Source: Yoonia sp. (lineage in GTDB: Bacteria; Pseudomonadota; Alphaproteobacteria; Rhodobacterales; Rhodobacteraceae). Taken from it: a DNA stretch of 33,691 bases. The DNA lies in assembly GCF_017854415.1 (NCBI RefSeq), contig NZ_JAFMHR010000014.1, forward strand, positions 1 to 33,691. The letters run 5' to 3'. The notes under the pieces were generated by a model. It worked only from the letters and a program-made list of their open reading frames with translations. It was not told the origin of the DNA and did not search any database. Positions 6,405 through 33,691 of the stretch are shown in pieces. A program made the position numbers and the translations under genes. Positions within the stretch are counted from its first letter, which is position 1; every line of letters starts with the position of its first letter.

Positions 6405-7766
6405 ATGAAACTTAAGGGTTTGGCCATAGTAGCGGTCGCAATGTCGATGATGACGGCACCAGCCGCACAGGCGGAATCGCTGTCTGATGCGTTGGCCTCT
6501 GCTTACAATAACTCTGGTTTGTTGGATCAGAACCGTGCGCTTTTGCGGGCCGCCGATGAAGGTGTTGCGCAATCGATGGCGGCGCTGTTGCCTGTGATTG
6601 GCTGGTCGTGGACTGCGAGCCGCACGCGCCGGTCTGAGGACAGCCCAGAGTTGCAGGATACGTCAGTTGCCCGCGTGACAGGCAGCTTGACACTCTACGA
6701 TGGGGGCGCGAGCAAACTTGCCACCGAAGCCCAAAAAGAGATCGTATTGAGCACACGCCAGTCGCTGCGCAATGTAGAGCAAAGTGTGCTTTTGCGTGCT
6801 GTTCAATCGTATATGAACCTTATTAGCGCACGTGAATTTGTTCAGTTGCGCGAAAATAACGTACGCTTGATCACCCAAGAATTTCGCGCTGCTCAAGACC
6901 GTTTTGAGGTAGGGGAGGTGACCCGTACCGATGTTGCATTGGCCGAAGCACGCCTTGCAGCGGCCCGCAGCCTACTTGCAGCCGCACAAGGTGATTTGGC
7001 CGTTTCTGCAGAGGAATTCCGCGCAGCCGTTGGGCGTGCGCCAGAAAGCCCGCGTGCGGTTACAGCGGCACCCGTGTCGCGCAGCTTGAATGATGCCAAA
7101 GCATTCGCCGTACGCAATCACCCCAGCATTCTGGAGGCGCAGCACAATGTCTCTGCGGCAGAATTGAATATCCGACGCGCACAGGCTGCCGTGAACCCAA
7201 CCGTATCACTTGATGGTTTCTACTCACGTGACCGCGACGACAACGGGACACTGCAGACAGGCGTTACAATCTCGGGCCCAATCTATCGCGGTGGATCGAT
7301 CTCCAGCCAAGTGCGTCAGACCCGTGCGAACCGCGATGCGGCCCGTTCTGGTCTACACCTGAGCATTATCGCAATCGAGCAGCAGGTCGCCAGCGCCTAT
7401 GCACGACTGCAGGTGGCGCGCGCGACCCGCGAAGCATCAGAGCAGCAGATTAGTGCCGCAACCGTTGCCTTCCAAGGTGTGCGCGAAGAGGCGACGCTTG
7501 GATCACGGACGACGCTTGATGTGCTGAACGCCGAGCAAGAATTGCTTGATGCACGTGCAAACCGCATCGCTGCGCAGTCCGATGAAGTTGTCGCGTCGTA
7601 TTCAGTGTTGTCTGCGATGGGTCTCTTGACCGCCGATCATCTGAACCTTGGTGTCCAGCAATATGATCCGTCAGAATACTATAATTTGGTGAAAAACGCA
7701 CCTATTCAGCGTTCGCCCCAAGGTGACGCGCTTGAGCGTATTTTGGAATCAATCGGCCAAGACTAA
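6405..7766 (+). CDS. tolC: TolC family outer membrane efflux/secretion protein
   Basis: The protein has 453 residues, with a signal peptide at its start (a hydrophobic stretch ending APAAQAES, cleavage near residue 24). Two outer membrane efflux repeats follow, rich in long alanine/glutamine heptad helices such as VTRTDVALAEARLAAARS and its partner RTTLDVLNAEQELLDAR. TolC trimers form the outer membrane duct of type I secretion and multidrug efflux systems. No ABC or adaptor partner is adjacent, so it probably serves several systems. AAGGTG precedes the ATG at a normal distance. The C-terminal segment after residue 420 is short and polar, as in other alphaproteobacterial TolC proteins. Confidence 0.92.
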   Translation: MKLKGLAIVAVAMSMMTAPAAQAESLSDALASAYNNSGLLDQNRALLRAADEGVAQSMAALLPVIGWSWTASRTRRSEDSPELQDTSVARVTGSLTLYDGGASKLATEAQKEIVLSTRQSLRNVEQSVLLRAVQSYMNLISAREFVQLRENNVRLITQEFRAAQDRFEVGEVTRTDVALAEARLAAARSLLAAAQGDLAVSAEEFRAAVGRAPESPRAVTAAPVSRSLNDAKAFAVRNHPSILEAQHNVSAAELNIRRAQAAVNPTVSLDGFYSRDRDDNGTLQTGVTISGPIYRGGSISSQVRQTRANRDAARSGLHLSIIAIEQQVASAYARLQVARATREASEQQISAATVAFQGVREEATLGSRTTLDVLNAEQELLDARANRIAAQSDEVVASYSVLSAMGLLTADHLNLGVQQYDPSEYYNLVKNAPIQRSPQGDALERILESIGQD

Positions 7767-32918: not shown

Positions 32919-33004
32919 GCCCGCGTGGTGGAATGGTAGACATCGGAGACTTAAAATCTCTTGGCCGCAAGGCCGTGCCGGTTCGAGTCCGGCCGCGGGC
33001 ACCA
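32919..33004 (+). tRNA. tRNA-Leu (UAA anticodon)
   Basis: The cloverleaf is complete. Acceptor arms GCCCGCG and CGCGGGC pair. The anticodon stem GGAGA/TCTCT encloses CTTAAAA with TAA as anticodon. A long variable arm (TTGGCCGCAAGGCCGT) is typical of leucine tRNA. The T arm is GCCGG-TTCGAGT-CCGGC. Discriminator A is followed by encoded CCA (33002-33004). It reads UUA and UUG codons. Confidence 0.97.
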
Positions 33005-33061: not shown

Positions 33062-33094
33062 TGTACCGTTTTCTCCAAATTCTTGTACCGTTTT
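33062..33094 (+). repeat. Two TGTACCGTTTT repeats downstream of tRNA-Leu
   Basis: TGTACCGTTTT occurs at 33062-33072 and 33084-33094, 22 bases apart in the same orientation, 58 bases after the tRNA. Such pairs can be arm-type sites for a tyrosine integrase at a tRNA attachment site. No integrase gene is in the window. Confidence 0.45.
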
Positions 33095-33124
33095 TAATCC
33101 TAAATTATTCTGTTGGCTTTTGTA

Positions 33125-33612
33125 GCGACAGGTTTATAGCCTGAACTCAGGTGTATTTTTCGCGATCTGCACCTATTGGTCGCTCTAGATTTGTTAGTTT
33201 CTTGTGGTGAGTTGGCTGCATCTCTGGGGTGACCGCTCACCATCAATGATCAATGGCCGTCTAGTTTGATCTGGATCAATGCAGTGTAGTGGCGGGGTTG
33301 TATCTTTAATTCAGGTGTCCTGTTCGCGCTGTCTCACCTAAAGGTCGCTCTGGAGTGCCCCCTCGCATCCTCCCCGATTGTAGCTACGTTTCCAGAGCGA
33401 CCACTCATCCACCAATGATGAATATATTCTTGATTTTGCAGCGACAGGTTTATATCTTTGGCTCAGGTGTATCAGTCGCAGGCCACACCTATTGGTCACT
33501 CTAGATTTGTTAGTTCTGTTGGCTGCATCTCTGGGGCGACCAGCTTAGTTCGCTCTAGATTTGTGGCTATCCCAACGTGGTTGCATTTCCAGAGCGGACC
33601 TCTCATCCATAA
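33125..33612 (+). repeat. Tandem array of structured intergenic repeats (three full, one partial)
   Basis: Units begin near 33125, 33292 and 33441, with a partial unit at 33549-33612. Each full unit reads roughly GCGACAGGTTTATA, then a small stem-loop (AGGTG...CACCT with TCGC in the loop), then TATTGGTCGCTCTAGATTTG, then a GC-rich closing arm. Units 1, 2 and 4 end in variants of GACCACTCATCCA; unit 3 is cut off after GACC. The large stem is a perfect 12-bp inverted repeat in unit 2 (33343-33354 with 33391-33402). In unit 1 all 12 pairs remain possible in RNA through three G-U wobbles and one G-C to A-U change. Short open frames across the array look accidental. Function unknown. Confidence 0.75.
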
Positions 33613-33691
33613 GTACAGGTTGACCAAAAAACTTAATATGGCCTAGTTTAAGGGCAGGGTACGAGCTTTGGGAGGAGCGAGTAGCTTAGTT
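33613..33691. other. Unassigned right edge of the window
   Basis: I see no gene, known RNA or repeat here. It is AT-rich up to about 33645 and then purine-rich. The repeat array may continue beyond the window. Confidence 0.3.

Follow-up and report, generated by a model that had tools for sequence, protein, structure and literature searches.

A tandem array of a putative FNR-activated small RNA gene downstream of tRNA-Leu in Yoonia sp.

Small RNAs controlled by FNR are known in few bacteria; in the part of the literature consulted, which was not searched by sequence, those of Rhodobacterales came from Rhodobacter. FnrS of enterobacteria is a small RNA under direct FNR control (PMC4263372), and in Rhodobacter sphaeroides low-oxygen input through FnrL has been described for PcrZ and for the FnrL-bound RNAs RSs0019 and RSs2461 (PMC8139620, PMC4263372). 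Tandem homologous copies are known from the CcsR1-4/cuckoo RNAs, which have an RpoHI/HII promoter, a DUF1127 gene in front and an end terminator (PMC10253847), and cuckoo-type loops are described as carrying CCUCCUCCC (PMC3927594). In the alphaR8 family (SisA-D, MmgR), siblings arose through duplication and through transfer; a stretch for pairing is rich in pyrimidines, UUUCCUCCCU is single-stranded, and a terminator is present (PMC12559287).

The window analysed here, 33,691 nt in length, was an entire contig (C144) of a draft genome of Yoonia sp. with 244 contigs and 92.6% completeness. Among plasmid records, the gcvP gene of the window was nearest to that of Limimaricola variabilis (83%), which, like the Rhodobacter-type FnrL, points to Rhodobacterales. 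The window ended with a TPR gene, a tRNA-Leu(TAA) gene and a tandem repeat array, in that order (Table 1). The array is fairly likely to be an FNR-activated small regulatory RNA gene in tandem, partly decayed copies, of which unit 2 would be intact, activated by FnrL and acting in trans. From its sequence, this small regulatory RNA looks undescribed. Among 55 further genomes of the genus, three (designated G016, G044, and G006) each contained one diverged relative.

PcrZ, RSs0019 and RSs2461 share their bacterial order and, by prediction, the FnrL-mediated low-oxygen input with the array RNA, and RSs2461 could be a relative of it. PcrZ differs by its PrrA site and by a control through FnrL that is perhaps indirect; this comparison was by published description only. 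Like FnrS, the array RNA is predicted to be a free small RNA switched on by FNR at low oxygen; unlike FnrS, it occurs in tandem, showed no U-run terminator and had no match in Rfam 15, including its FnrS model to the extent that this release contains one. The tandem arrangement recalls CcsR, here in the window only, with one copy found per relative. The cuckoo-type loop motif was absent from the array RNA, and no DUF1127 gene lay directly in front, where the window had the TPR gene and tRNA-Leu and where none was seen among the neighbours scanned in the relatives. With alphaR8 as described, the array RNA has in common siblings by duplication and transfer and a pyrimidine-rich stretch, while the single-stranded 10-mer of that family was absent from it. 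A search of Rfam 15 gave no family match at the array or its relatives except tRNA and a chance snoRNA match (E 2.5), which ruled out a riboswitch or other known RNA. The array RNA thus fits none of the sequence definitions tested and is probably an FNR-type small RNA whose special trait would be tandem siblings of uneven promoter state.

Table 1. Features of the array and its surroundings (positions in the window)
Feature	Position	Strand	Remarks
tRNA-Leu (TAA), before array	32919..33004	+	ARAGORN and Rfam; downstream side is the putative landing place
Tandem array	33121-33609	+	3 full and 1 partial copies; non-coding stretch 3' of tRNA gene
Unit 1, promoter-like part	33121..33148	+	no FNR box (best 4/10 at place); weak TATAGC at 33135-33140
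Unit 1, hairpin 1	33149..33174	+	
Unit 1, hairpin 2	33178..33234	+	12/12 pairs
Unit 2, FNR-type box	33266-33279	+	perfect TTGAT-N4-ATCAA; centre 40.5 nt upstream of hairpin 1
Unit 2, candidate -10 hexamer	33301-33306	+	TATCTT; by eye
Unit 2, hairpin 1	33313..33339	+	predicted (inferred) transcript start about 33313-33314
Unit 2, hairpin 2	33343..33402	+	perfect 12-bp stem; C/U-rich loop
Unit 2, unpaired tail	33403..33418	+	ACTCATCCACCAATGA; similar in G044, partly in G016 and unit 1
Unit 3, promoter-like part	33437..33464	+	TATCTT at 33453-33458; no FNR box (best 5/10 at place)
Unit 3, hairpin 1	33465..33490	+	
Unit 3, hairpin 2	33494..33541	+	11/12 pairs
Unit 4, hairpin 2 only	33548..33599	+	fold z -4.8 plus, -1.4 minus

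The distances from unit start to unit start were 164 and 152 nt. Units 1 and 3 shared 82% identity across 82 nt, and the similarity between units was above chance, with blastn E values of 4e-23 (units 1 and 3) and 1e-4 (units 1 and 2). These values bore out three full and one partial imperfect copies, as the initial annotation had described. Unit 4 was missing both the promoter part and hairpin 1. Coding by the array was ruled out by stops throughout all six frames, and by eye there was no common frame in the relatives; a CRISPR was ruled out by the divergence of the units and their spacing of 152-164 nt. The earlier statement that the array was neither CRISPR, rRNA, tRNA nor a recognised RNA family held on spacing, divergence and the Rfam search. 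The contig ended 82 nt past the last unit (at 33691), with no gene before the end. Its final 18 nt (33674-33691) were 83% like the junction of units 3 and 4 (33533-33550), so the array may extend past the contig end. Between tRNA-Leu and the array, the direct repeat TGTACCGTTTT occurred at 33062-33072 and 33084-33094, 22 nt apart.

In unit 2, the arms of hairpin 2 (33343-33354 and 33391-33402) were 100% complementary. Hairpin 2 of unit 1 had one A-U in place of G-C and three G-U pairs, and the failing pair of unit 3 was A-C. The pairing first reported for these three units was reproduced by the counts: a perfect stem in unit 2, twelve pairs with one compensatory change and three wobbles in unit 1, and 11 of 12 pairs with an A-C mismatch in unit 3. 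For unit 4, 10 of 12 pairs formed in register (U-C and A-C failed), close to the 10 of 11 given before. The AGGTG/CACCT small stem, assigned before to each copy, was present in three units and not in unit 4, which lacks that half.

When a 511-nt stretch was folded, the plus-strand RNA had a z of -3.7 (0 of 100 shuffles as good) and the minus-strand RNA a z of -1.9 (3 of 100). For single units including the promoter part, the strand result was mixed (unit 2, z -1.2 plus and -1.6 minus); folding from the predicted start gave z values of -2.4, -3.1, and -2.0 for units 1-3. The covariation score of the window's four units alone was not significant (reached by 318 of 500 shuffles). Under a mutation null, all 12 pairs between units 2 and 1 were kept with P = 0.13, and at least 11 pairs between units 2 and 3 were kept in 40% of trials. 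The caution of the initial annotation that so few copies could pair by chance was justified at this level (318/500; P = 0.13); from sequence comparison, the kept pairing is strong only once the three relatives are included.

As proposed with the initial annotation, a covariance model (R1) was built from the four units; it was searched against 56 genomes of the genus, the own genome included. Beyond the array, R1 gave G016 (43.3 bits) and G044 (35.1 bits); a match in G021 was dropped (E 0.9). The model with the G016 and G044 copies added (R2) gave G006 (27.6 bits, E 0.001 per genome, over 56 genomes). Each of the three other species thus had a homologue whose stems were kept with compensatory changes; the membership of G006, which rests on E 0.001 per genome and the FNR box, is marginal. 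A third model (R3) that included upstream DNA gave matches in 4 of the 56 genomes; it was trained on the array and all three relatives and so merely re-finds them.

In the own genome, covariance-model searches gave no unit above noise on any other contig, and blastn of the array gave only the array itself. Among 394 genomes of the family (393 genera, own included), R2 and R3 matched the own array only, with 7-9 candidates scored per genome, so that this absence is weak evidence. Blastn of the array against 40 relatives gave five weak matches (E 0.0096-0.085), one of which (L003) sat within a 622-aa frame. No match to the array was found by blastn in phage and plasmid records; with the homologues as queries against plasmids, the G044 copy gave none and the G016 copy one 34-nt match (E 6). 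Two exact unit strings matched no viral contig.

Several other candidates were rejected. The R1 match in the family genome G247 (L047; 21.5 bits, E 0.004) was within a 565-aa frame and was not re-found by R2 or R3. Two R2 matches of about 19 bits (L054 and L055) were both within 336-aa frames, two matches in the own genome (L045 and L046, 12.8-13.8 bits) had no R3 match, and L050 (13.8 bits) was dropped as a weak model match. A stem pattern gave three matches in genome contigs (L037-L039, 6-14 bits with R1); this pattern would match none of the G016, G044, and G006 copies and is therefore no census. A stem-pattern match in viral contigs (L040, 13.7 bits with R1) had no R3 match. Later stem patterns gave two foreign family matches and one viral contig, with no box of at least 7/10 upstream and no R3 match.

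Covariation was counted on an alignment fitted to R2, which contained units 1-3 and the copies from the three relatives, six in all; unit 4 was not among the matches. In this alignment, 98.0% of 102 pair cells held, 9 of the 17 pairs had double changes, and the covariation score was reached by 0 of 500 shuffles. When the partner was shifted by 1-3 columns, pairing went down to 37-45%. Five of the nine double changes, those in helix 1, stemmed from G006 alone or G016 alone. The fitted alignment leans to structure, and helix 2 was therefore recounted on a plain MAFFT alignment; helix 1, misaligned in two rows, was left out of this count. Here 97.2% of 72 cells were paired, 4 of 12 pairs were double-changed (reached by 18 of 500 shuffles), and the covariation score was again reached by 0 of 500 shuffles; the number of pair types did not beat the shuffles on this alignment (352/500). 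The null P for keeping the pairs relative to unit 2 was 0.008 for G016, 0.016 for G006 and 0.16 for G044. Both helices were recovered by RNAalifold on the fitted alignment. The stems were therefore kept through compensatory changes in other species, as in a structured RNA family, over six copies of which three came from one array.

On the plus strand of the fitted alignment, there were 9 G-U cells but just 1 A-C cell and one further mismatch. The fold z of the sense and antisense strands was -5.8 and -2.9 in G016, -3.7 and -1.7 in G044, and -3.0 and -1.1 in G006; the minimum-energy fold of G044 did not form hairpin 1 as modelled. Selection on plus-strand RNA, proposed from the window alone, was supported by the three homologues with compensatory changes and by the 9 G-U against 1 A-C cells.

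The FNR-type box preceded hairpin 1, with its centre at a distance of 40.5 nt (unit 2 and G044) or 41.5 nt (G006 and G016). The box scored 10/10 in unit 2, 9/10 in G044 and G006, and 7/10 (weak) in G016, where two other 7/10 sites nearby made the site not outstanding. Among 2000 dinucleotide shuffles, the box score at this place was reached by 1 for unit 2, 0 for G044, 0 for G006, and 24 for G016; the place was chosen after unit 2 had been seen, so its own figure is no test. Four sites in the window departed from the box by one mismatch at most, where 1.3 were expected, so a single box on its own means little. As R1 and R2 contained no box columns, the box supports the relatives independently, G006 in particular. 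No FNR box was found at unit 4, nor at units 1 and 3. A box at class II distance was thus strong in unit 2, G044, and G006, weak in G016, and lacking in units 1 and 3.

In Dinoroseobacter shibae, working Fnr boxes with the site TTGAT-N4-ATCAA lie 39.5-43.5 bp before the start, and Dnr-type proteins bind similar sites, according to the part of the source consulted (PMC5398030). With the box at a class II activator position, the RNA should start at hairpin 1. By eye, TATCTT-like hexamers stood at the expected -10 place in the aligned upstream DNA. The first ~28 nt of each unit read as promoter rather than RNA. At the predicted site, a sigma-70 consensus scan gave a promoter neither in the window nor in G016 or G044, and in G006 there was none on the strand concerned; promoters of the class II activator type can lack this consensus. 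The promoter-like part, the unit 2 box and the non-shared location behind tRNA-Leu had been overlooked in the initial annotation.

The window's genome, the one examined for the regulator, had four Crp-type matches, three of them over the cut-off. One protein (L068) was identified as FnrL by the NCBIfam equivalog (Rhodobacter-type model), scoring 387.5 bits against a cut-off of 300, and carried the cysteine cluster CSDCPIRYNAVC; a second (L067) was Fnr/FixK-like and below every cut-off. FnrL is the first candidate regulator and not the sole one, because Dnr-type proteins bind like sites.

At low oxygen, FnrL would activate the unit 2 copy through the FNR box about 41 nt and TATCTT about 10 nt before the RNA. 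An RNA of ~90-110 nt would result, with hairpin 1 first, then the 12-bp hairpin 2 with its C/U-rich loop, and the unpaired tail last. It would pair in trans with mRNAs through the hairpin 2 loop or the tail ACUCAUCCACCAAUGA, plausibly at ribosome-binding sites. In this scheme we infer transcription, the start site, the acting Crp/Fnr-type protein, the trans action and the targets. The hairpin 2 loops were C/U-rich in unit 2 (CCCCCUCGCAUCCUCCCC), G016 (UUCUUGUCUCCC), and G044 (GUCUUCUCC), and loops of this composition are described to serve as anti-Shine-Dalgarno motifs in further small RNAs of Alphaproteobacteria (PMC3927594, in the part consulted). Units 1, 3, and 4 may not be expressed, may be covered by transcription that enters from upstream, or may answer a different signal. 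Scans of the window, G016, G044, and G006 found no U-run terminator directly behind hairpin 2; in G016, a terminator-like site was ~115 nt farther downstream of it. With its covariation and fixed activator site, this compact family offers a candidate low-oxygen regulator that can be tested directly; its tandem set, in which the promoters are uneven, is a natural series on the survival and decay of duplicated small RNA genes.

The RNA copy had four different neighbourhoods in the four species. The window's post-tRNA DNA was found in none of the 27 other genus loci read beyond tRNA-Leu (one only 2 nt long); most of those stretches differed among themselves, and five pairs shared stretches. The site after tRNA-Leu(TAA) is probably an integration hotspot, judging from these comparisons. 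The G044 copy lay behind an integrase gene at tRNA-Asn, the G006 copy ~1.1 kb from a resolvase gene, and the G016 copy behind a Crp-type regulator gene on the same strand (L051 8025-8804). These positions suggest mobility of the RNA between genomes. The next downstream frame was convergent in G016, G044, and G006 (3/3), so the RNA is not a 5' leader in the relatives. In G006, an unassigned co-directional 146-aa frame (L066 7648-8088) ended inside the box region (box 7638-7651). With these co-directional frames upstream, the RNA may have come from a 3' UTR in G016 and G006.

Some further features of these loci were recorded. The TPR-tRNA-Leu pair was kept in 28 of 30 genus loci while the DNA from 33005 on varied strongly (L008-L036), and in one of them (L019) a frame directly behind tRNA-Leu was tyrosine integrase-like by eye. 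The G006 copy lay between two genes with weak cytochrome c domain matches (L066 6809-7267 and 8134-8616), a possible link to respiration.

The changing neighbourhoods also bear on a different origin, in which the RNA is a cargo or control RNA of integrative elements, timed by the host FNR-type protein, and not a host gene. This is a real possibility, if an unlikely one: besides the integrase and resolvase near two copies, the window copy follows a tRNA in DNA not common to congeners, but none of the 4 neighbours scanned around the G016 copy was a recombinase gene, the 18 kb of that locus contained no tRNA, and neither blastn of phage and plasmid records nor the viral contig scans gave a copy. 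A tentative and rather doubtful extension of the small RNA reading is an undescribed oxygen-responsive family that mobile elements carry between related genomes and that forms tandem copies once it has landed, its duplicates losing the FNR input one by one while the folds persist. If true, mobile elements would hand each new host a ready-made low-oxygen regulator. It is improbable that the array instead belongs to a neighbour gene as its 5' or 3' UTR, in the form of a structured leader or a read-through region under FNR control. The co-directional regulator gene upstream in G016, the 146-aa frame reaching the box region in G006, and a window contig that ends 82 nt after the last unit, before any next gene, would fit such a region; the convergent downstream genes in all three relatives argue against a 5' leader there, and the box implies an own start.

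The preferred reading, a small RNA gene, was also weighed against two explanations without a functional RNA, both very improbable. The perfect 12-bp inverted repeat of unit 2 and the recombinase genes near the G044 and G006 copies would suit a DNA palindrome (a protein site, recombination site or transposon end) with the RNA fold as a by-product. This was already disfavoured, as the wobbles are one-stranded (9 G-U against 1 A-C), the sense strand folds more strongly in all three relatives, and a covarying two-hairpin order stands behind a fixed activator box. Functionless decaying repeats, paired through chance and common descent, would explain why the window-only pairing is not significant and why three of four units lack the box, but hardly the independent homologues with covariation and the fixed box.

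Three minor observations concern G044 and the window. Within the RNA of G044 (minus strand of L049, about 1585-1632), the hairpin 1 loop had a tandem duplication, a near-duplicate of GGTGTATGCGTAGGCCCGAG. A remnant resembling tRNA-Glu (minus strand of L049, about 1820-1890; 26 bits with the Rfam tRNA model, under its cut-off of 29) was preceded by CCAGAGTGACCGCT; this sequence resembles the 3' arm of hairpin 2 and is perhaps a second, fused remnant of the RNA. At 721-806 of the window, an ordinary glycine riboswitch aptamer (Rfam, 62 bits) lay before glycine cleavage genes.
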